From: a virus
DNA length: 38,803 bases
IMG/VR virus record: IMGVR_UViG_3300021425_000077
Span: 1 to 38,803 of that record
Direction: 5' to 3' (one strand)
Positions 7,157-23,534 of this stretch are shown here, piece after piece; position 1 is the stretch's first letter; every line of letters begins with the position of its first letter. A program made the translations under genes and the position numbers. The notes below the pieces were generated by a model. That model saw only the letters and a program-made list of their open reading frames with translations. It was not told where the DNA came from and did not search any database.

Positions 7157-8463
7157 ACAATAGATATTTCACTTACTTCTCTCCCATTTGATGATTTTCT
7201 TATCCTGTCCTCAATCATCCCTGATTCGTACATATTATTGAGAGCCAAATCAAGACTCCCTCTCAATTTCTGACTCAACTTACTAGACAGCTTACTCCTT
7301 GAGCATGGTCCAAGCCTGAGTGATTCAGTTACTTTCTTTTCGACCTCATCAACATCAGTGAGATTCATAACCTTGAAGGCCATGCACCAACTGGTGACTA
7401 GGTACTTAGTGAGGCTAATAGCCTTCTCCATGATGGTGGCATCTACCTTGTCTTTCTTCCAGATGACACAGAGGAGTCCACAAATCTTATGGAAGTGAAC
7501 CCACCATTTAGATTTAGCTTCAGCGTTATATTTGTCATCAGTTGAACACAGCCAGTCAAACATCTCAAGCCCAAGCTTCATGGCCTCATCAGTTAGCTTC
7601 AGAACTTTTGGGTGTTCATCCTCAAATAGGTCGCTCATAAAGTCATCATAGTCCTTCACCACATCACCGATAAAAACGTCATATGGATTCGGATTCTTGA
7701 GACCTCCACCTATGCCAGTCACGATGATAAACCTATCCATGAGGCCGTTGTCAATCTTACCATCGAAAGCCTCTTGAAAAACTTTAGGTTGAATCGTACC
7801 TAGAAGCCCAAGGCGAAACTTTGGAGTAGAATCCTTCTCTCCCTTATTCGCTTTGATGCTCATGGCTCCATCATAGGCTTTGAGATAAAAACCCATCTCA
7901 CCACCATCCTTACCACCGCCAGAGGCATATTTGCCCATGCCCTTAACCCAGCCATCAAGCTCCTCTGAGAATTGGCCAATCATAGCTGGGTGTTCCCACT
8001 CATTATTTTGCTTGGCTGTGTCCCTGATACCTTCAGTTGTTCCTTCAGTGATAACACCATACCAAGGTGAAGCTGGTTCTTTCATAAGGTGGTCGTCAAG
8101 AAGCTCTGCCCCTCGCTTAGTCCTATCCTTCTTTAATACCTCAAGCCTCTTTGACCACATAGCAAAGCTCTTGTTGTATCTGCTTATCTCACCCTCTATC
8201 TCTTTCATGATGGGGCCTGTAGTGAATCCCAGAGCTGGCGTCTTAGCGTCACCCTTTGGTGCAACGATAGCACCATAGATATTCAAGCCAATTCTGTAGT
8301 TGTCTTTTATCTCCACCTTTGTCTCTGGCGCACAGATGGACGTTGCCCATAAAACACCAAGGGCTCCGTATTCTGGACGAGAGCCAACAACAGTGGGGAG
8401 ATTCTGTAGAAGATGCCTAATCTGTTTAGGAAAGACATCTATTGGAAAATCAATTAAGCTCAA
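7153..8463 (-). CDS. DUF3987 helicase/primase-like ATPase
   Basis: A 436-residue protein of the DUF3987 type, a family found in phage replication modules and often described as helicase- or primase-helicase-like. A P-loop variant APKGDAKT lies at 68-75, an acidic Walker B-like EELDGW at 168-172, and the family signature LLGTIQPKVF with DNGLMDRF (238-245), whose Arg244 fits an arginine finger. The C-terminal end (GSLDLALNNMYESGMI) looks like a winged helix. The start overlaps the upstream gene by 14 bases. The gene end abuts the repeat-bearing AT-rich region, which is consistent with origin loading. Confidence 0.85.
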   Translation of the reverse strand: MSLIDFPIDVFPKQIRHLLQNLPTVVGSRPEYGALGVLWATSICAPETKVEIKDNYRIGLNIYGAIVAPKGDAKTPALGFTTGPIMKEIEGEISRYNKSFAMWSKRLEVLKKDRTKRGAELLDDHLMKEPASPWYGVITEGTTEGIRDTAKQNNEWEHPAMIGQFSEELDGWVKGMGKYASGGGKDGGEMGFYLKAYDGAMSIKANKGEKDSTPKFRLGLLGTIQPKVFQEAFDGKIDNGLMDRFIIVTGIGGGLKNPNPYDVFIGDVVKDYDDFMSDLFEDEHPKVLKLTDEAMKLGLEMFDWLCSTDDKYNAEAKSKWWVHFHKICGLLCVIWKKDKVDATIMEKAISLTKYLVTSWCMAFKVMNLTDVDEVEKKVTESLRLGPCSRSKLSSKLSQKLRGSLDLALNNMYESGMIEDRIRKSSNGREVSEISIV

Positions 8464-9121
8464 GCCTGCTCCTTACCTCATCAATTCTAGCGCACTTAAT
8501 AGAAGACAGTGCAAACATTTTTCTAAATTGATCCTCACTGATTCCTAGCCCAATGTAATCAGAGTAAACAAGAACATTACAGTGATTTGATTTCATCTGC
8601 CTCATTATTGTTGGGTAATCATCACCAACAGAAGGCTTTAGTTCTACAGCGTAAGACTTAGGGCTAAGGCAAAAGAGTTCGCTCTCCATATCATAGGAGC
8701 TTGTTTTTTGCTTGCCCTTTAAAATGTAAGACCAGACGGAGAACTTAACATCTGCGCCCCTGCTCTCAAATGCAAGGTCATAGATTTCACAAAAGCCGTG
8801 AGTTAATTCAGCACCATCAACACCATGATACTCAAGGGCACTGGTGTATTTGTCAAAATGCTCAAAGTAAACATCTTCTCCGATAACAAAAGCATGAAGA
8901 GCCTTACATATAGATTCGTCAAGGAATAATCCTTGAAGAGAATTATGTTCTGGCGTGTCCTCTGCCTCTTTAAAATTGTTGATTATCAGAGTCTTGATAT
9001 TTGAATACCTATCGAGGAAGTCCCCCTGAGACATTAGCCAATCACAATACCCTTTATCACTGGCAAGCACCTCTACAGGCTTACCTTTGTATTTTCCAAA
9101 AGGAATAACATCACTATTCAT
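8450..9121 (-). CDS. Protein with ExoX-C-like N-terminus and possible nuclease core
   Basis: A 223-residue protein. The first 35 residues, IPFGKYKGKPVEVLA then YCDWLMSQGDFLDRY, match the small domain found at the C-terminus of exonuclease X-like proteins and as DUF3820. The later segment YAVELKPSVGDDYP followed by RQMKS and NVLVYSDYIG has an E-x-K arrangement and a strand-helix pattern compatible with a PD-(D/E)xK nuclease or a resection factor. The nuclease call is tentative. It lies in the replication run, overlapping both the upstream small gene and the downstream DUF3987 gene. Confidence 0.7.
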   Translation of the reverse strand: MNSDVIPFGKYKGKPVEVLASDKGYCDWLMSQGDFLDRYSNIKTLIINNFKEAEDTPEHNSLQGLFLDESICKALHAFVIGEDVYFEHFDKYTSALEYHGVDGAELTHGFCEIYDLAFESRGADVKFSVWSYILKGKQKTSSYDMESELFCLSPKSYAVELKPSVGDDYPTIMRQMKSNHCNVLVYSDYIGLGISEDQFRKMFALSSIKCARIDEVRSRLELN

Positions 9122-9344
9122 TTATCTGCGTCTCCACATAGCCATCAAATTCATATCCATTCCCAGCAAAAAAATCTCTAGCTGGCATCATACCTTTGTC
9201 CCCATTACCAAGGACAAGACCAATGCACTCTTCGACATGTGTAAATCTCCAGAATCGAACAGGGACAGAGATAACAGCTTCATCTTCATTTGTAAAGAGC
9301 GCCCAAGTCTCTACTGTCACTGGTGTTATTTGCATGTATTCCAT
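9114..9344 (-). CDS. Small protein, unknown
   Basis: A 76-residue protein. The likely start is ATG 9344, which overlaps the upstream stop as TGATG and lies seven bases after AGGGGAG; a GTG at 9347 is also in frame. The protein has a Trp- and acid-rich N-terminal half (VETWALFTNEDEAV) and a Gly/Phe-rich C-terminal half (DFFAGNGYEFDGYVE). No family recognised. It is the second gene of the leftward early run. Confidence 0.65.
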   Translation of the reverse strand: MEYMQITPVTVETWALFTNEDEAVISVPVRFWRFTHVEECIGLVLGNGDKGMMPARDFFAGNGYEFDGYVETQINE

Positions 9345-9520
9345 CACTTTTCTCCCCTAATCACATCATCAATCTTATCTAAGTCTGCCCTCAAGGTCGT
9401 TCCTCCAACCTTGCGGAACAAATCACCAAGAGGGGTTTTGCCAGATATGTGATTTCTGACCGCCCCCTCACTCATTGACAGATAATCTGCCACCTGTTTA
9501 ACACTTGCCCATCTAGCCAT
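9344..9520 (-). CDS. Small helix-turn-helix protein (excisionase/MerR-like fold)
   Basis: A 58-residue protein starting MARWASVKQVADYLSMSEG. The pattern SVKQVADYLSMSEGAVRNHI is a helix-turn-helix of the excisionase/HTH_17 type, and the remainder ends DKIDDVIRGEK. It is the first gene of the leftward transcription unit and sits beside the divergent promoter region, so it is a good candidate for the regulator of that region. No integrase was seen, so a real excisionase role is unlikely. Its ribosome binding site shares AACGGAG with the plus-strand leaders. Confidence 0.75.
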   Translation of the reverse strand: MARWASVKQVADYLSMSEGAVRNHISGKTPLGDLFRKVGGTTLRADLDKIDDVIRGEK

Positions 9521-9620: not shown

Positions 9621-9647
9621 TTGCATCTTCTGGGTCCCATATAAAAT
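9621..9647 (+). promoter_or_regulatory. Rightward promoter with GGGTCCC spacer element, copy 1
   Basis: TTGCAT (9621-9626) and TAAAAT (9642-9647) are spaced 15 bases apart with GGGTCCC at 9632-9638. The same arrangement recurs at 12336 and 13401. An ATG at 9655 lies eight bases after the -10, where transcription would be expected to begin, followed by AACGGAGAAAAC and the SD-led ATG at 9676. Confidence 0.65.
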
Positions 9648-9675
9648 TGATGACATGCTTAACGGAGAAAACAAC

Positions 9676-9867
9676 ATGAGCAACAAACTAACACTAAAAT
9701 TGAAGGCTGACCGAACAGGAGAGGCTAGGGTTGGAGATAGGCTAGTAGCGACCTATCAAGAAGAAAATGGAATCTATACCGCCCAGATTGGTGGTGGGCC
9801 TATGAAATTTCTTGGCAAAAGAAACATGGTTAGCTTCTTGGTCGATTATTACTTGGTGAGGGCATAA
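9676..9867 (+). CDS. Small early protein, unknown
   Basis: A 63-residue protein starting MSNKLTLKLKADRTGEARVG behind AACGGAG. A longer in-frame form from ATG 9655 adds MLNGENN. The sequence has alternating hydrophobic and polar residues (GIYTAQIGGGPMKFLG) suggesting a small beta fold. It is the first gene of the rightward arm and directly follows promoter copy 1. Its stop codon lies in the loop of a terminator, so it can be expressed as a short stand-alone transcript. No family recognised. Confidence 0.7.
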   Translation: MSNKLTLKLKADRTGEARVGDRLVATYQEENGIYTAQIGGGPMKFLGKRNMVSFLVDYYLVRA

Positions 9868-9882
9868 GCCCCACCTTTTTTT
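9855..9882 (+). terminator. Rho-independent terminator / attenuator
   Basis: GGTG (9855-9858) and GGGC (9860-9863) pair with GCCC (9868-9871) and CACC (9872-9875), with one bulged A and an ATAA loop, followed directly by seven T. The stop codon of the first rightward gene lies in the loop. Readthrough or a further promoter would be needed for the SSB-like gene downstream. Confidence 0.8.
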
Positions 9883-9926
9883 CATTTTTAAGAGAACAAA
9901 TCAAATCATTTTAAAGGAGTAAAAAA

Positions 9927-10439
9927 ATGAGTTTGTATAGTGGAAACAAAGCAACAGACACTGGTGGAAACTGGAAGGCTGGAGCTTATAAATTTATCAT
10001 CACTGAAGCCAAAGAAGCCGATTGGGGTCTATTGTACTCCATGAAGACTTGGACGGCTGAAGGTGCAGAGGGTCCAAACATCAAGGACGCTTTGAGAATT
10101 GGCTCTGACAAGGACGCTGTCCTTAAAGAGGTAGACCGCAGGCTGACCACCATGTTGGGCAAGCCTGAGATTGACAGCATTGACCAACTGGTGAATGCCA
10201 AGGGTTGGGTTGTTCTCCGTAAGGGGCACAAGTATCTTGAGCCTATGCCTTTCGGTGCTTATTTTGCATCTGATAAAAAATCAGCGACAGGCAAGGCTGA
10301 CTCTATTCTTGGAGCCATTGAAGACGCTCAGGCGTATGACTGGACACAGGACAGCTATGCTGTTCAGAGAGCTGAGAAAGATGGTGTTAGCCCATCTTCA
10401 CCTAGCTCACCAGAAGACTCTGAAACGATGCCCTTCTAA
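9927..10439 (+). CDS. SSB-like / DUF669-type single-strand DNA-binding protein
   Basis: A 170-residue protein with a compact N-terminal domain (MSLYSGNKATDTGGNWKAGA onward, beta-strand pattern) and a flexible Ser/Pro tail ending EDSETMPF. An acidic tail ending in M/I-P-F is the hallmark of bacterial SSB C-termini, which recruit partner proteins. DUF669-type proteins commonly sit next to a Sak4-like ATPase, as here. The likely role is to coat single-stranded DNA for replication and annealing. AAAGGAG lies well placed before the ATG. It could be a distant SSB rather than DUF669; the functional class is similar. Confidence 0.7.
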   Translation: MSLYSGNKATDTGGNWKAGAYKFIITEAKEADWGLLYSMKTWTAEGAEGPNIKDALRIGSDKDAVLKEVDRRLTTMLGKPEIDSIDQLVNAKGWVVLRKGHKYLEPMPFGAYFASDKKSATGKADSILGAIEDAQAYDWTQDSYAVQRAEKDGVSPSSPSSPEDSETMPF

Positions 10440-10465
10440 TTTGATTTTTAGGATTTTGAGTTAAT

Positions 10466-10576
10466 ATGATTTCGGAGAGTGGAGCATTGGAAGTCATGAG
10501 CCGATGTGTCGGGTTTCGTACCTTAACCCTTCCACTCTCCAAAGTCAACAAGGTACTTTTTGAAGGTATGAGATGA
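10466..10576 (+). CDS. Possible 36-residue leader peptide before the HNH gene
   Basis: An ORF from ATG 10466 (MISESGALEVMSRCVGFRTL) ends in TGA that overlaps the HNH ATG as ATGA (10573-10576), the same coupling used elsewhere in this genome. However, there is no good ribosome binding site, and almost all of it coincides with a self-complementary RNA element (10474-10540). I regard it as possible but weak. Confidence 0.25.
   Translation: MISESGALEVMSRCVGFRTLTLPLSKVNKVLFEGMR
10474..10540 (+). other. Self-complementary three-way-junction element upstream of HNH gene
   Basis: GGAGAGTGGA (10474-10483) pairs perfectly over ten bases with TCCACTCTCC (10531-10540). Inside, CATTGG (10485-10490) pairs with CCGATG (10501-10506), and GGGTT (10511-10515) pairs with AACCC (10525-10529). 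Together they form a 67-base three-way junction with 10- and 9-base loops. No T-run follows, so it is not a simple terminator. It resembles neither a tRNA nor a riboswitch I can name. It could be a regulatory RNA, an HNH recognition site or a chance structure. Confidence 0.5.
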
Positions 10577-11172
10577 AACTTAAAGATTTGAGTAACAAAA
10601 AGTTTGGCAGGCTTACAGCTATAAGGCGACACAATAGGAAGTGGATTTGCCAGTGTGACTGCGGGAGACTGTCAGAGGTCTTGCAATACAATTTGCACAG
10701 TGGGCACACAAAAAGCTGTGGTTGCCTAAAGTTAGAATCGAAATCAATAACACACGGCAAGAGGAACTCGAAGGTTTATCGTGTTTGGTCATCAATGAAG
10801 ACAAGGTGTGTAAATAAATCTTGTCGATCATTCCCAAATTATGGTGGCAGAGGCATCGTCATGGATGAGAGATGGGAGTCCTTCGAGAACTTTCTTTGCG
10901 ATATGGGCGAGCCACAAGATGGTTTTGAGTTGGATAGAATTAACAACAATGGGCCATACTCAAAGAGCAACTGTAGATGGGCTGATAAAAAAACACAAGC
11001 AAATAACAGGAGATCAAACAGACTTCTGAAGTTAGGAGATAATGAAAGGACCATATCTCAATGGTCAGATGAAATTGGTTTTTCATCAAGCACAATAAGA
11101 GAGAGGCTTCAAAGAGGATGGAGCGTTGAGAAAACATTGAATACACCAGTTAGAAAACAAAGGAGAAAATAA
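10573..11172 (+). CDS. HNH homing endonuclease with zinc knuckle and C-terminal DNA-binding repeat
   Basis: A 199-residue free-standing HNH protein. The N-terminus has a zinc-binding pattern WICQCDCG (24-31) and KSCGC (47-51). The core PNYGGRGIVMDERW (88-101) with ELDRINNNGPYSKSNCRW (119-136) is the degenerate HNH/AP2-type arrangement frequent in phages. The C-terminal stretch ISQWSDEIGFSSSTIRERL (161-179) is a helix-turn-helix. It lies between the SSB-like and Sak4-like genes, a pair usually adjacent, and so looks like an insertion. Its last codons contain AAAGGAG, the ribosome binding site of the next gene. Confidence 0.88.
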   Translation: MKLKDLSNKKFGRLTAIRRHNRKWICQCDCGRLSEVLQYNLHSGHTKSCGCLKLESKSITHGKRNSKVYRVWSSMKTRCVNKSCRSFPNYGGRGIVMDERWESFENFLCDMGEPQDGFELDRINNNGPYSKSNCRWADKKTQANNRRSNRLLKLGDNERTISQWSDEIGFSSSTIRERLQRGWSVEKTLNTPVRKQRRK

Positions 11173-11834
11173 TGGGTGAACCAGTGATGATATTGGGAAA
11201 AAGTGGGTCAGGCAAAAGCTACTCTTGTAGAGAACTTGATCCAGATAGAACTATAATAGTCAGCGTTGATGGAAAGAGGCTTCCATTTAGCTCTAAGGAC
11301 TGGCCTAAAATGACCTCAGAAAATCCATCTGGATCTATTTATACGCCAAGGGTAAATGGGTCTAAAGCGTATACTGTGATCCAGAAGGCTTGTGACGAGG
11401 CAGTTGCCAACCATGGCAAAAAGGTTATCGTCATAGATGACAGCCAGTTCCTTATGGCCAATGAATTTTTCGATAGAGCTTATGAAAGAGGATTTGATAA
11501 ATTTGTTGATATGGGCAAGCAGTTTCATGATCTTATTTTATGGGCAAGAGGTCTGCCAGATGACATAACAATCTATTTTCTTCATCATCTTGAGCTAGAT
11601 GCTGATGGGTCCAAAAAGGTTAAAACGGTTGGGAAATTACTAGACAACCAGACCTCGATAGAGGGCAAGTTCACCATCTGCCTGTTGGCTGACAAGGATG
11701 AGGACAGCTATAAGCTGAAGTCATCTGTACCCAGTGAGTCCATCTTTAAGGCACCTCCTGAGATGCTTGACGATGAGATGGATAATGATCTAGCTGTCGT
11801 TGACAGTAGGATCAGGGAGTTTTGGAATATCTAA
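11172..11834 (+). CDS. RecA-like ATPase, Sak4-type single-strand annealing protein
   Basis: A 220-residue P-loop ATPase. Walker A is GKSGSGKS (9-16), Walker B is VIVIDD (85-90), and a FLHHLE segment (136-141) fits the sensor position. The protein is shorter than RecA and lacks RecA's extra domains, which matches the Sak4/AAA_24 class of phage single-strand annealing recombinases. It is flanked by an SSB-like protein upstream and a RecE-like nuclease further downstream, together forming a recombination module. The start overlaps the HNH stop (TAATG). Confidence 0.82.
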   Translation: MGEPVMILGKSGSGKSYSCRELDPDRTIIVSVDGKRLPFSSKDWPKMTSENPSGSIYTPRVNGSKAYTVIQKACDEAVANHGKKVIVIDDSQFLMANEFFDRAYERGFDKFVDMGKQFHDLILWARGLPDDITIYFLHHLELDADGSKKVKTVGKLLDNQTSIEGKFTICLLADKDEDSYKLKSSVPSESIFKAPPEMLDDEMDNDLAVVDSRIREFWNI

Positions 11835-11843
11835 CCCCGCCAG

Positions 11844-11981
11844 TTGGGTGACAGGAGCATAAAGGACTTGTGTGCTAAATCTGGCTATCCTGTGCGTGCC
11901 TCGATGGGAGGCGTTCTGTATCGTAACGAGTCCAACCCATCACTGTGGCCTCACCCTTCTGGGTGGGGTCACTCCCTTTAA
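11844..11981 (+). CDS. Possible TTG-start 45-residue ORF or structured leader
   Basis: After the Sak4-like stop the same frame stays open from TTG 11844 to TAA 11981, reading MGDRSIKDLCAKSGYPVRAS at its start. No clear ribosome binding site precedes it. The bases also contain several self-complementary segments, including GCCTC/GAGGC and a 12-bp stem at 11945-11972. A GGAGCAT...GTAAC pattern is shared with the element at 10474-10540. Whether it is a gene, a decayed gene fragment or an RNA leader cannot be decided from this sequence. Confidence 0.3.
   Translation: MGDRSIKDLCAKSGYPVRASMGGVLYRNESNPSLWPHPSGWGHSL
11945..11972 (+). terminator. Strong hairpin, probable weak terminator or attenuator
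   Basis: GTGGCCTCACCC (11945-11956) pairs with GGGTGGGGTCAC (11961-11972) over 12 bases with two G-T wobbles, closing a TTCT loop. The tail TCCCTTTAA is only partly T-rich, so termination may be incomplete. It ends 23 bases ahead of the next ATG. Confidence 0.5.
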
Positions 11982-11995
11982 CTTGGAGAGATAAC

Positions 11996-12151
11996 ATGAA
12001 ACCAAGAGAAATCATGCAGGCATACAAAGAAGGTGCTGAGATTGAATATTTCAGTGAACCCCTTAACCAATGGCTACCAGCAAAGAGCCCTACTTGGAAT
12101 TGGGAGACTAGGGACTATAGAGTTAAGCCACTGAGTAAGGAGGTGAGCTAA
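11996..12151 (+). CDS. Small phage protein with W...DYR(V)KP tail
   Basis: A 51-residue protein starting at ATG 11996 (MKPREIMQAYKEGAEIEYFS) behind TTGGAGAG. The C-terminal TWNWETRDYRVKP matches a small-protein type I have seen in many phages (xxWDW...DYRIKP) whose function is unknown. The stop overlaps the next ATG (TAATG), so it is coupled to the zinc-ribbon gene. Use of a further-upstream ATG (11945) would run through the hairpin stem and is unlikely. Confidence 0.7.
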   Translation: MKPREIMQAYKEGAEIEYFSEPLNQWLPAKSPTWNWETRDYRVKPLSKEVS

Positions 12152-12339
12152 TGCCAGCCTATGACTACAAATGCACCTCCTGTGGCTACACAGAAGAAGT
12201 GAGACACAGCATCCACGCATCACCAGATGTGAACTGCAAGATATGTGATGCCCAGTTACAGAGGCAAATAGGGCCAGTTCCTAGCCACTTTAAAGGTAGG
12301 GGGTGGGCCTCAGATAACTACTCAAAAGATAGTTCTTGA
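12151..12339 (+). CDS. FmdB-family zinc-ribbon protein
   Basis: A 62-residue protein beginning MPAYDYKCTSCGYTEEVRHS. Two knuckles, CTSC at 8-11 and CKIC near 30-33, and the opening PxYDYKC are characteristic of the FmdB/CxxC_CxxC regulatory zinc-ribbon family. In bacteria these are putative transcriptional regulators; the phage role is unknown. The last codons overlap the -35 of promoter copy 2. Confidence 0.85.
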   Translation: MPAYDYKCTSCGYTEEVRHSIHASPDVNCKICDAQLQRQIGPVPSHFKGRGWASDNYSKDSS

Positions 12340-12363
12340 CAATTCGGGTCCCATAAGTAAGAT
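12336..12363 (+). promoter_or_regulatory. Rightward promoter with GGGTCCC spacer element, copy 2
   Basis: A perfect TTGACA (12336-12341) and TAAGAT (12358-12363) with a 16-base spacer carrying GGGTCCC at 12346-12352. An ATG at 12370 lies seven bases after the -10, in frame with the SD-led ATG at 12391. Confidence 0.7.
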
Positions 12364-12390
12364 GTAAGCATGTTCAACGGAGAAAACAAA

Positions 12391-12645
12391 ATGAGCAACT
12401 TAGTTTACTTAAATCACCTAACCTTTGAGGATGGGGCATTTGTTGCCTATGACCTCATGGATGAACCCCACAAGGTTCACTGCCCAGACTTCACCAAAGA
12501 GGTCATCGTTGAGATGCCATATATGGGTGGCGTCAACAAAATCTCTTTCTCTAACCTTGACGCCCTCATTGACTACATTGATGAGAATGTTAGGACTAGA
12601 GGCAAAGCAGAGAAGACTTTTAAAATATTGGGGGAGAACAAATGA
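12391..12645 (+). CDS. Small early protein, unknown
   Basis: An 84-residue protein starting MSNLVYLNHLTFEDGAFVAY behind AACGGAG; the in-frame upstream ATG 12370 would add MFNGENK. The middle is acidic (DLMDEPHKVHCPDFTKEV) and the C-terminal part helical and basic. It is the first gene after promoter copy 2 and is coupled to the next gene by ATGA. No family recognised. Confidence 0.7.
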   Translation: MSNLVYLNHLTFEDGAFVAYDLMDEPHKVHCPDFTKEVIVEMPYMGGVNKISFSNLDALIDYIDENVRTRGKAEKTFKILGENK

Positions 12646-12806
12646 CATTCATCGACAAGCTAAAAAAAGTAAACGAGAGCCTAAAACATACCAGCTACAA
12701 AACAGATGGTCTATGCCTAGTTGAGACTACGCCATCAGGGACAACCAGATACCCATTCAAGACTCTACCAGAGCTTGAGCAGTCACTAGAAGCTTATTTT
12801 TCATAA
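12642..12806 (+). CDS. Small protein, unknown
   Basis: A 54-residue protein, MTFIDKLKKVNESLKHTSYK to SLEAYFS, whose ATG overlaps the upstream stop (ATGA). GGGGAG lies seven bases upstream inside the preceding gene. It has a short N-terminal helix, then a beta-like middle (GLCLVETTPSGTTRYPF) and a C-terminal helix. The overlap and codon quality support a real gene; function unknown. Confidence 0.65.
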   Translation: MTFIDKLKKVNESLKHTSYKTDGLCLVETTPSGTTRYPFKTLPELEQSLEAYFS

Positions 12807-12826
12807 TCATAGAGAACGGAGAAAAC

Positions 12827-13048
12827 ATGAGCAACTGCGACTACTGCAAATACCATGCAACCTATTTTGAGGTTGAGTGGAATCTATTCGGAGAACCTAG
12901 CGAATCAGCCAAGGCCTGCCCTAAGCACTTCAGCAACATCTGTGAGGATTATGTTGATGGTAACTATATCGAACGTCTGCGATACAAATCAGACAACACA
13001 CTTTTTTTAACCCTAACTAAAGAACAAGCAAGGAAATTTATCCGATGA
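12827..13048 (+). CDS. Small cysteine-rich, probable zinc-binding protein
   Basis: A 73-residue protein starting MSNCDYCKYHATYFEVEWNL behind AACGGAGAAAAC, the same ribosome-binding sequence used after the GGGTCCC promoters. The residues CDYC near the start, then ACPKHFSNIC further on, could bind zinc. The C-terminal half is basic and ends TLTKEQARKFIR. No GGGTCCC promoter precedes it, so it is probably transcribed from copy 2. Function unknown. Confidence 0.68.
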   Translation: MSNCDYCKYHATYFEVEWNLFGEPSESAKACPKHFSNICEDYVDGNYIERLRYKSDNTLFLTLTKEQARKFIR

Positions 13049-13266
13049 CTAAAACAACATCACAACGAACCCTGACACGCTGGATGATTCGAGGCGATTG
13101 GGAGAGCTACAGCTTTGACCACTGGGCTGGGGCCTTTGGCACTGCTAAAGCTCACCAGCTCATCAGTGCAGGCGTACTGGTCGAAGACATTGACGACAGC
13201 GACTATGACTCTGGCTGGACAGGTCACAGCGAGATGGTTGAGATTCAACTAGGAGGCAACACATGA
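13045..13266 (+). CDS. Small acidic protein, unknown
   Basis: A 73-residue protein, MTKTTSQRTLTRWMIRGDWE onward, coupled to its neighbour on both sides by ATGA overlaps. The centre has a Trp/Phe-rich helix (YSFDHWAGAFGTAKAHQLI) and the C-terminal part is acidic (VEDIDDSDYDSG). No known motif. Context is the early accessory cluster. Confidence 0.6.
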   Translation: MTKTTSQRTLTRWMIRGDWESYSFDHWAGAFGTAKAHQLISAGVLVEDIDDSDYDSGWTGHSEMVEIQLGGNT

Positions 13267-13397
13267 CCTACCACCAGCAAGCACTGATTCAGTTCATGGC
13301 ATTCATGGCCACCTTTGCCTTTGTAGCCCTCTCTGTGAGGGCTCTTTGGCCAAGGATCAAGAGAGAGATGAAGTGGCATGAGGTGGATAGAAAATAA
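13263..13397 (+). CDS. Small single-pass membrane protein
   Basis: A 44-residue protein starting MTYHQQALIQFMAFMATFAF, with one hydrophobic segment (about residues 9-30) followed by a strongly basic tail (RALWPRIKREMKWHEVDRK), which predicts an N-out, C-in topology. Its ATG overlaps the previous stop (ATGA). It resembles the 37-residue membrane protein at 16403 in layout and in the REMK/DEMK ending. A lysis or superinfection-exclusion role is possible but unproven. Confidence 0.65.
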   Translation: MTYHQQALIQFMAFMATFAFVALSVRALWPRIKREMKWHEVDRK

Positions 13398-13400
13398 AGC

Positions 13401-13427
13401 TTGAAGCTTTTGGGTCCCGAATAGAAT
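13401..13427 (+). promoter_or_regulatory. Rightward promoter with GGGTCCC spacer element, copy 3
   Basis: TTGAAG (13401-13406) and TAGAAT (13422-13427) with a 15-base spacer carrying GGGTCCC at 13412-13418. An ATG at 13434 lies seven bases after the -10, in frame with the SD-led ATG at 13455. Confidence 0.65.
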
Positions 13428-13454
13428 CTTGATATGTTCAACGGAGAAAACACT

Positions 13455-13886
13455 ATGAACTTTGAAACACTAGACCAATTCATAAGCAACTGGAAGACGA
13501 AAGTCCTTGACGCTTACATGAACCTTTATAGGGAATACAAGGAGCTTTCTGCTCAGGCAGGCTCCAACATCAAAGCCTACAGAGCTTTGAGACTTGAATG
13601 GATGAAAAAGAACCAAATCGGGAAGGGTCTTCTTCAAGACATCTCAACTGGTCATCCTGAGTGGTTCGCTGAACAAGTTGAAAAAGAAGGCGAGAGGAAG
13701 AAGGCCAAGATCATCTTCCGAGTAGAGAAGAAGGCTGGCAAGATCATCGATGGAGACCTTAAGCTAGGCCTCGATGGAGAGATCAACGGCACCATCAGGG
13801 GTGAGGACAAGACTGTCCACGTCCAAACTATCATCGCTGGAGGCTACAACATCCAATGCGCTCACTTCAGACTTTTGGTTAAATAA
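13455..13886 (+). CDS. Protein of unknown function preceding the RecE-like nuclease
   Basis: A 143-residue protein starting MNFETLDQFISNWKTKVLDA behind AACGGAG. The N-terminal half is helical (YREYKELSAQAGSNIKAY) and the C-terminal half looks like beta strands (GKIIDGDLKLGLDGEING). It follows promoter copy 3 directly and lies nine bases ahead of the nuclease gene, so it may be a partner of the recombination module. No family recognised. Confidence 0.68.
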   Translation: MNFETLDQFISNWKTKVLDAYMNLYREYKELSAQAGSNIKAYRALRLEWMKKNQIGKGLLQDISTGHPEWFAEQVEKEGERKKAKIIFRVEKKAGKIIDGDLKLGLDGEINGTIRGEDKTVHVQTIIAGGYNIQCAHFRLLVK

Positions 13887-13895
13887 GGAGAAAAT

Positions 13896-14633
13896 ATGAC
13901 CGAAAAGAAACCATACCTATCCCCGTCCACAGCCAAGATGCTACTGGACTATCCCCTGCCCGTGGCTTTCCACAAGATTCATCACAGAAAAGGACCATCT
14001 GACGCCATGATCTTTGGCTCACTGGTGGATGCTCTTGTCACTGAGCCTGAGAAGATTGAGAAAGAGTTCAAGATACTTGAGGGTGATGAGGCCAATGGGC
14101 ACACAAAAGTGGGCAAGGAGGCCAAGGCGAAAGCTCTTGCGAACAATCAGACGCCTGTGAAGGTGGATGTCTTTAATCAGGCAAAAATGGCCTCTGTGGC
14201 GGTGATGACTCACCCTGAGTTTTTGAAGCTACAGGCCCCAGAGTTTCAAGTGAAGCTTGAGGGTTCTGTTTCTGGTGTTGACTCACTGGGATATGCTGAC
14301 ATCGTTGCTGATGATGTGATCCTAGACCTCAAGGTTTTCAATGCACAGACCTTTGAGAATCCATCTAGGACCATCTTTAACAGAAAGCTACACCTTCAGC
14401 TCTGGATTTACCAGCAGATTCTCAGAACCAATAAGCGTCTGGGCGTCATGGTCTGCCTATCAGAGGAGCCCTATTACACAGAAATCTGGTGGCTTGATGA
14501 TGACTGGCTAGACCTAGCCCAAGCACAACACAGGCAAGCAGTTGAAGCATACAAGGAGTATCTACTCTTTGACCCAGCCCACTCAGTTAGTGGGGATTCT
14601 AAAACAGTTCACATCGAAGGATGGATGAAATGA
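13896..14633 (+). CDS. RecE-like PD-(D/E)xK exonuclease (exodeoxyribonuclease VIII type)
   Basis: A 245-residue nuclease. The opening LSPSTAKMLLDYPL and the FGSLVDALVTEPE segment (40-52) match RecE/DUF3799-type enzymes. The catalytic core is GYADIVADDVILDLKVF (132-148), giving Asp135 and the D144-x-K146 pair. The helix HLQLWIYQQIL (166-176) matches the conserved Q-x-x-x-Y element. Such enzymes resect 5' ends to give 3' single strands for an annealing partner, here probably the Sak4-like protein. All expected catalytic residues are present. Confidence 0.85.
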   Translation: MTEKKPYLSPSTAKMLLDYPLPVAFHKIHHRKGPSDAMIFGSLVDALVTEPEKIEKEFKILEGDEANGHTKVGKEAKAKALANNQTPVKVDVFNQAKMASVAVMTHPEFLKLQAPEFQVKLEGSVSGVDSLGYADIVADDVILDLKVFNAQTFENPSRTIFNRKLHLQLWIYQQILRTNKRLGVMVCLSEEPYYTEIWWLDDDWLDLAQAQHRQAVEAYKEYLLFDPAHSVSGDSKTVHIEGWMK

Positions 14634-14794
14634 GCGTAGCAAAATTAGTAGGAAGGCCAACCAGAAAAGGGGTGGCATCAGAGAGACATATCAAGGCAAG
14701 AGTGACTGAGGCTGAGTATCAGAAGGTCTTAGACAAAGCCATTAAAAAAGATGTGTGCGTTGCTGAGTATGTTAGAAAGAGGTTGGGACTATGA
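14630..14794 (+). CDS. Small ribbon-helix-helix-like protein
   Basis: A 54-residue basic protein, MSVAKLVGRPTRKGVASERH to VRKRLGL. The segment HIKARVTEAEYQKVLDKAIK with a following VCVAEYVRKRL matches a ribbon-helix-helix pattern (strand, two helices) of MetJ/Arc type, so it may be a small transcription regulator. It is coupled on both sides by ATGA overlaps. Target unknown. Confidence 0.68.
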   Translation: MSVAKLVGRPTRKGVASERHIKARVTEAEYQKVLDKAIKKDVCVAEYVRKRLGL

Positions 14795-22770: not shown

Positions 22771-23534
22771 TAGATAGCCTCCTCATCAGCAACCAAGACA
22801 CGCAGAGGCATGTCCACAGATAAGAAACTGTTGCCAGCATGTTTTGGCGCATTGATCTTTGTGGCAAATGCAAAGCCAATCTCTGAGGAGTAGGTCACAG
22901 GGTCCCACTTATAGATGAACGGATACCTTGCACAATGCTCAGAGAATGGCTCCCAGTCGCTTCTGACCCATGAGGCGGTCAAGTGGTCAAGCATGATCTT
23001 CCCTGTCCTTTCTAGGCGTTTTATGGAGCGCCCTAGTACTGATCCGTTCTCTGAGATAGTGTTGGTGAACTTGACGCCCTGAGTGAAGGTTGGGGGTACA
23101 GCAGAATCCCACTGACCCCTCTGCATCTCTAGGGCCTCACCAACAACCAACTGCCTCACGTTGACAGTTCCACCTGTGAAGCTGATTCTGATTCTCCTGC
23201 CACTGGATACAGTCACGCTACTGAACTCATCAAAGGTCAGCTTGCCAGATGTCGCTGTGTAGGTCTGGAGGGTGGTGAAGGATGACACCCCAGACTCATA
23301 TTTGAGAGCGATTGTGTTTGAAGTCGAGTGGCTTGCTGTGTAGATGCTAAAGGAGTCAATGTCTGTGTCTGACCCCATGGTGAAGTCCAAGTCCCCTGCA
23401 TCAGCCTCAAAGAAACTGAAGTCTCGCCAGTCCGTTGCTGACGCTGGTGGCTTGCCTGAGACAGTGGTTCCTGACCATGTAGGGGTCACGCCTCTGAGGA
23501 CATTATTGTATAAGACTTTGGGTTTCAGTGCCAT
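22770..23534 (-). CDS. Distal tail protein (putative)
   Basis: A 254-residue, beta-rich protein with a central carbohydrate-binding-like or F5/8-like stretch (DIDSFSIYTASHSTSNTIAL, GRRIRISFTGGTVNVRQLVV). The C-terminal part (GKIMLDHLTASWVRSDWEPF with YPFIYKWDPVTYSSEIGFAF) looks like a tail-tube-derived fold. It lies directly after the tape measure gene (ATGs and stops abut at 23534), where the distal tail protein is encoded in siphophages. Assignment by position and style. Confidence 0.72.
   Translation of the reverse strand: MALKPKVLYNNVLRGVTPTWSGTTVSGKPPASATDWRDFSFFEADAGDLDFTMGSDTDIDSFSIYTASHSTSNTIALKYESGVSSFTTLQTYTATSGKLTFDEFSSVTVSSGRRIRISFTGGTVNVRQLVVGEALEMQRGQWDSAVPPTFTQGVKFTNTISENGSVLGRSIKRLERTGKIMLDHLTASWVRSDWEPFSEHCARYPFIYKWDPVTYSSEIGFAFATKINAPKHAGNSFLSVDMPLRVLVADEEAI

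Follow-up and report, generated by a model that had tools for sequence, protein, structure and literature searches.

A candidate regulon of sigma-70-type promoters with a shared spacer palindrome in an uncultured tailed phage

We analyzed the entire 38.8-kb virus record IMGVR_UViG_3300021425_000077 (38,803 nucleotides, hereafter the window), which derives from a tailed phage and carries three rightward promoter units, at positions 9621, 12336, and 13401, that share the heptamer GGGTCCC between their -35 and -10 hexamers. The best explanation of these units is a regulon of sigma-70-type promoters with a YGGGNCCCR operator in the spacer, bound with negative feedback by a small ribbon-helix-helix (RHH) protein, and we give this combined reading about an even chance of being right. 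Because the same compact promoter stands before different genes in this phage and in three distant relatives, these genes probably share one phage-made switch. This would supply an uncultured phage group, which lacks a close relative in the searched collection, with a candidate operator and a putative small repressor, and would make promoter annotation possible in this group.

Promoter units in the window and in related contigs

An earlier note on this DNA had described the three units, and every element was found where that note had placed it (Table 1). The hexamers of all three are of the sigma-70 type (a -35 near TTGACA and a -10 near TATAAT, approximately 17 bp apart), with spacers of 15-16 bp, which is below the optimum, and we read the units as host sigma-70-type promoters of predicted activity. 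The preceding zinc-ribbon gene ends with the TGA inside the -35 TTGACA of unit 2. The composite pattern TTG-N7/8-GGGNCCC-N3/5-TANNNT occurred three times in the window, compared with a mean of 0.016 occurrences expected from 1000 simulated sequences (second-order Markov). GGGTCCC alone showed no enrichment (4 in the window vs 2.6 expected), and its fourth copy, at 22900, sits outside any unit. GGGNCCC in general was neither depleted nor strongly enriched, so that nothing indicates a restriction-site role for it.

Sak4 searches returned three contigs with the same gene block (L006, 62% identical; L007, 52%; L012, 58%). These contained six further units (L006:2445, L006:5876, L007:3735, L007:4163, L007:6958, and L012:3173), which precede either the same genes as in the window or different ones. 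Composite-pattern counts in contigs L010, L009, and L012 were 2, 2-3, and 1, respectively, against approximately 0.01 expected in each. Together with the count in the window, the six additional copies upheld the earlier view that the same arrangement on three genes reflects a regulon and not chance. The unit was present in none of approximately 50 more distant Sak4 contigs. Among the viral contigs, the exact pattern GGGTCCC...ATG..AACGGAG gave two matches only, both within a helicase-like coding stretch and judged to be chance, while the relaxed GGGNCCC pattern was found in the L006 and L007 contigs only. A contig search with the unit 3 gene found nothing, contig searches with the SSB-like and RHH genes returned no contigs beyond the known relatives of the window, and no relevant literature on GGGTCCC in phage promoters was found.

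Comparison of the nine units showed that the palindrome is kept while its center varies. The heptamer in the related contigs is mostly GGGGCCC or GGGCCCC, the central base being T in the window and L012 and G or C in L006 and L007. All nine units have a pyrimidine before and a purine after GGGNCCC, which extends the site to YGGGNCCCR. The spacer between -35 and -10 measures 15 bp in eight units and 16 bp in the ninth, a count in which the -35 of two units (L7-A and W3) was assigned by eye. A weight matrix built solely from the six non-window units and run on the window ranked unit 1 first (22.3 bits) and unit 2 second (16.2 bits). The matrix ranking, the nearly constant spacing, and the Y and R flanks argue that what is conserved is YGGGNCCCR at a nearly fixed position in the promoter.

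The likeness of the window copies could also have arisen by duplication of a promoter-leader cassette in the genome without shared regulation, with the palindrome as a by-product of descent. Units 1 and 2 have 31 bp in common, from CATG to ATGAGCAAC, at 90% identity, and the part from the Shine-Dalgarno (SD) sequence to the ATG was also copied to 12815. However, when the nine units of the four diverged phages are compared, hardly any position between the -35 and the -10 is constant apart from YGGGNCCCR, and the central base of the palindrome switches between T, G, and C with both arms unchanged. We consider duplication without shared regulation very improbable.

The genes behind the units also differ between phages. 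The gene that follows L006:5876 and L007:6958 has a window orthologue at 13263-13397, which lies directly before unit 3 and not behind it. Each of the four contigs has a unit ahead of the small gene or genes upstream of the SSB-like gene. Units found ahead of different genes, at shifting places in the gene order, have the layout of one operator acting on several promoters. What a shared regulon would be expected to show, the same site in the same position on unlinked promoters and kept in relatives, was found for nine units on four contigs ahead of different genes.

The leader and its first ATG

In the window units, the first ATG begins at the 8th, 7th, and 7th base past the -10 (units 1, 2, and 3, respectively) and lies 21 nt before a second ATG in the same frame. 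Transcription starts were placed by the spacing from the -10, and the predicted +1 agrees within a base with the A of the first ATG, at which a sigma-70 RNA polymerase is expected to start. Transcription from this A, seven or eight bases past the -10, would give a leader of approximately 21 nt, in which AACGGAGAAAAC would serve as the ribosome-binding site of the second ATG, the main start. No notable RNA structure was found in the unit leaders.

The earlier note had proposed that the transcripts are leaderless and that use of the first ATG adds M(L/F)NGEN, giving long (MLNGEN or MFNGEN) and short forms of the three proteins. We now regard this as improbable. An ATG stands at the predicted +1 in five of the nine units (the three window units, L006:5876, and L007:3735), whereas the other four have AGC (L006:2445), ACC (L007:4163), ATA (L007:6958), and ATC (L012:3173) in its place; a start codon at +1, which leaderless genes would be expected to keep in related units, is absent there. 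That note had named the loss of GGGTCCC and of the first ATG in related phages as evidence against itself, and half of this was observed, since the palindrome was kept and the ATG was lost in these four units. L006:5876 and L007:6958 precede orthologous genes, yet the ATG is present only in L006:5876 and GTTAAACGGAGACA is kept in both. Of the 17 codon differences counted pairwise within the extension, 16 are non-synonymous. Across the leaders, the A that follows the discriminator is constant and the SD is kept in most; the SD, as the invariant stretch, also occurs by itself: one of the four exact occurrences of AACGGAGAAAAC in the window (12815) has no promoter unit. To judge from that copy, AACGGAGAAAAC can work alone as a ribosome-binding site. 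The lost ATGs, the kept SD, and the non-synonymous changes are better explained by a leader that holds a ribosome-binding site than by a coding extension.

The reading frame, on the other hand, speaks for the first ATG. All five ATGs at +1, and an ATG just upstream of +1 at L007:4163, are in frame with the main gene without an intervening stop, at distances of 21, 21, 21, 24, 36, and 30 nt from the main start. Six in-frame ATGs out of six would occur by chance with a probability of approximately 1/27 to 1/81 when the three window units are counted once, a post hoc estimate from few independent cases. In E. coli, some mRNAs that combine a 5'-terminal AUG with an internal SD start use both for translation, to differing extents (PMC4965119). 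Given the in-frame ATGs and these precedents, a minor role for the first ATG is possible: it would be part of the leader and at most a minor 5'-terminal start or an aid to ribosome docking. Improbable, too, is a single regulon that couples the spacer operator to a 5'-terminal AUG in frame with the SD-led start, the frame being kept across relatives, so as to produce two N-terminal forms per gene or to recruit 70S ribosomes. Should the in-frame AUG at the 5' end serve as a start, the units would be a natural collection in which leaderless and SD-led starts are paired and share a single control.

The predicted layout, with an AUG at the 5' end of the RNA and an SD-led main start shortly downstream, resembles that of the E. 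coli ptrB, rcnR, and iscR mRNAs, whose 5'-terminal AUG and internal SD start were shown by toeprint and fusions (PMC4965119). The ptrB leader is 26 nt long, and its 5' AUG aids the downstream start while the peptide it encodes is not needed (PMC4965119). The upstream AUG of the window units differs in being in frame with the main gene, and its place at the RNA end is predicted. The lambda cI mRNA is not known to have an internal SD-led start acting as the main start, and this sets it apart from the units described here. It is named as leaderless (PMC4965119), as an RNA from these units would be with an AUG at +1.

Candidate binders of the palindrome

GGGTCCC had been suggested to be a nearly palindromic site for a phage activator. 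The near-palindromic shared site was confirmed, in the wider form YGGGNCCCR, while a role in activation was not favored. A protein on this site would sit between the -35 and the -10 and compete with RNA polymerase, and by analogy a site within the core promoter would suit a repressor or autoregulator better than an activator. Aca proteins repress their own operons via inverted repeats inside the core promoter, and an acr-aca promoter was active in E. coli (PMC9410906). Repression is favored here because an inverted repeat in the core promoter and a small DNA-binding regulator downstream in the same operon form the arrangement shown for Aca proteins. In contrast to the Aca proteins, which are helix-turn-helix (HTH) proteins, the favored candidate here is an RHH protein; no anti-CRISPR is known here, and several separate promoters would answer to a single regulator.

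Among the products of the genes at 9344, 12151, and 14630, that of 14630 fits best as the regulator, and we consider this NikA-like RHH protein the most likely reader of GGGNCCC. In each of the four contigs, its gene directly follows the exonuclease gene and has a unit upstream. The family PF21983 matched all four records with units, compared with 2 of 23 other Sak4 virus records without units. Against the cut-off of 27 bits, the scores were above for L006 (43.1) and L007 (37.6) and below for the window (23.2) and L012 (23.7). A profile from the four RHH counterparts matched NikA (2BA3) with E 0.0036. The low-confidence model of the window protein has a strand at 24-26 and helices at 27-40 and 44-52, and its best Foldseek match was also 2BA3 (E 2.9). 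The likeness to NikA-like or MobC-type RHH proteins is one of sequence; NikA works in mobilisation, as a relaxosome protein at the transfer origin of a plasmid, whereas the proteins here are shorter and no mobilisation gene was seen.

A further parallel is Arc of phage P22, a small RHH repressor whose operator lies between the -35 and the -10 of P-ant. Its operator of 21 bp is bound by two dimers, whereas the candidate site here is a palindrome of 7-9 bp, one per promoter, and the likeness is one of repressor type and operator place. The regulon would probably be expressed early or in the middle of infection. Strong transcription at entry would be followed by shut-off as the RHH protein, made from the same rightward block, accumulates and binds the palindrome, which would provide negative feedback.

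Several observations weigh against this reading. The matrix from the non-window units ranked unit 3 only fifth (10.5 bits). The four unit-bearing phages are each other's closest relatives, so that the co-occurrence of RHH protein and units is not independent, and most of the contigs used for comparison are fragments. Identity between the RHH protein of the window and those of the relatives is only approximately 30%, and the fold model of the window protein is poor (mean predicted local distance difference test, pLDDT, 62.5). Compared with the sites of RHH repressors that bind as two dimers (Arc, RelB), the palindrome is short, and we infer both the binding by the RHH protein and the expression of the units from sequence.

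It is possible, although rather unlikely, that the palindrome of the same regulon is read by the excisionase-like winged-HTH protein (9344-9520), by the zinc-ribbon protein (12151-12339), or by a host factor, and that the reader activates and does not repress. An orthologue of the winged-HTH gene, which adjoins unit 1, occupies the same place in L006 (53% identical). The winged-helix model is confident (pLDDT 87), with Pukovnik Xis, RdfS, and BldC as the top Foldseek matches (E approximately 0.05-0.13, probability 0.99-1.0). The optimum for the spacer is 17 bp, and a spacer of 15 bp is compatible with dependence on an activator. However, L007 and L012 carry units and no winged-HTH orthologue was found in these incomplete contigs, and the palindrome is absent from the predicted promoter of the winged-HTH gene itself (9581-9554, minus strand).

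Gene setting and further elements

The leftward genes of the window encode terminase, portal, capsid, protease, and tape-measure proteins. The rightward block, from 9655, holds SSB-like, HNH-like, Sak4-like annealing, and PDDEXK exonuclease genes together with small genes; SSB-like is our label for a protein without a family match, and HNH-like is likewise our label, based on sequence. Of 50,697 phage records, none matched the window at the DNA level. In the cultured-phage collection, the SSB-like protein had no match, unit-sized DNA queries gave chance-level matches only, and the best Sak4 identity was at most approximately 40%.

Table 1. Positions of the promoter units, leaders, and genes in the window
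Feature	Position	Strand	Description
Promoter unit 1	9621-9647	+	-35 TTGCAT 9621-9626; GGGTCCC 9632-9638; -10 TAAAAT 9642-9647; spacer 15 bp
Promoter unit 2	12336-12363	+	-35 TTGACA 12336-12341; GGGTCCC 12346-12352; -10 TAAGAT 12358-12363; spacer 16 bp
Promoter unit 3	13401-13427	+	-35 TTGAAG 13401-13406; GGGTCCC 13412-13418; -10 TAGAAT 13422-13427; spacer 15 bp
Unit 1 leader	9655-9678	+	First ATG 9655 (predicted +1); SD AACGGAGAAAAC 9661-9672; second ATG 9676
Unit 2 leader	12370-12393	+	First ATG 12370; SD AACGGAGAAAAC 12376-12387; second ATG 12391
Unit 3 leader	13434-13457	+	First ATG 13434; SD AACGGAGAAAAC 13440-13451; second ATG 13455
SD-start copy without promoter	12815-12829	+	AACGGAGAAAAC and ATG before gene 12827-13048; upstream in-frame ATG also absent
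Unit 1 gene	9676-9867	+	63 aa from SD-led ATG, 70 aa from first ATG; no PHROG or Pfam match
Unit 2 gene	12391-12645	+	No family match
Unit 3 gene	13455-13886	+	Followed by exonuclease gene 13896-14633, then RHH gene
Zinc-ribbon gene	12151-12339		Ends within the -35 of unit 2
NikA-like RHH protein	14630-14794	+	54 aa; Pfam PF21983 E 8e-5, below Pfam cut-off
Excisionase-like winged-HTH protein	9344-9520	-	58 aa; divergent from unit 1

Ahead of gene 12827, AACGGAGAAAAC and ATGAGCAAC stand together with the promoter absent, as if the SD-start cassette had been copied by itself.

Immediately ahead of the HNH-like gene, the window (10473-10541) and L006 (2714-2783) each carry a 70-nt RNA-like element with a three-way junction that is closed by a stem of 10 bp. 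Its stem and arms stay paired through two-sided changes (GGAGAGTGGA/TCCACTCTCC vs GGAGGACGGA/TCCGTTCTCC), and the folding z was -3.6 in the window and -4.9 in L006. The element had no match in Rfam or with ARAGORN, and a model of it run on the other compared loci, L007 and L012 included, gave no clear copy. A gap of approximately 155 bp (11835-11990), which separates the Sak4 gene from the gene after it, contains several short G+C-rich inverted pieces. In L006, approximately two dozen tandem repeats of 18 nt lie at 8155-8600 within an open reading frame of 279 codons.

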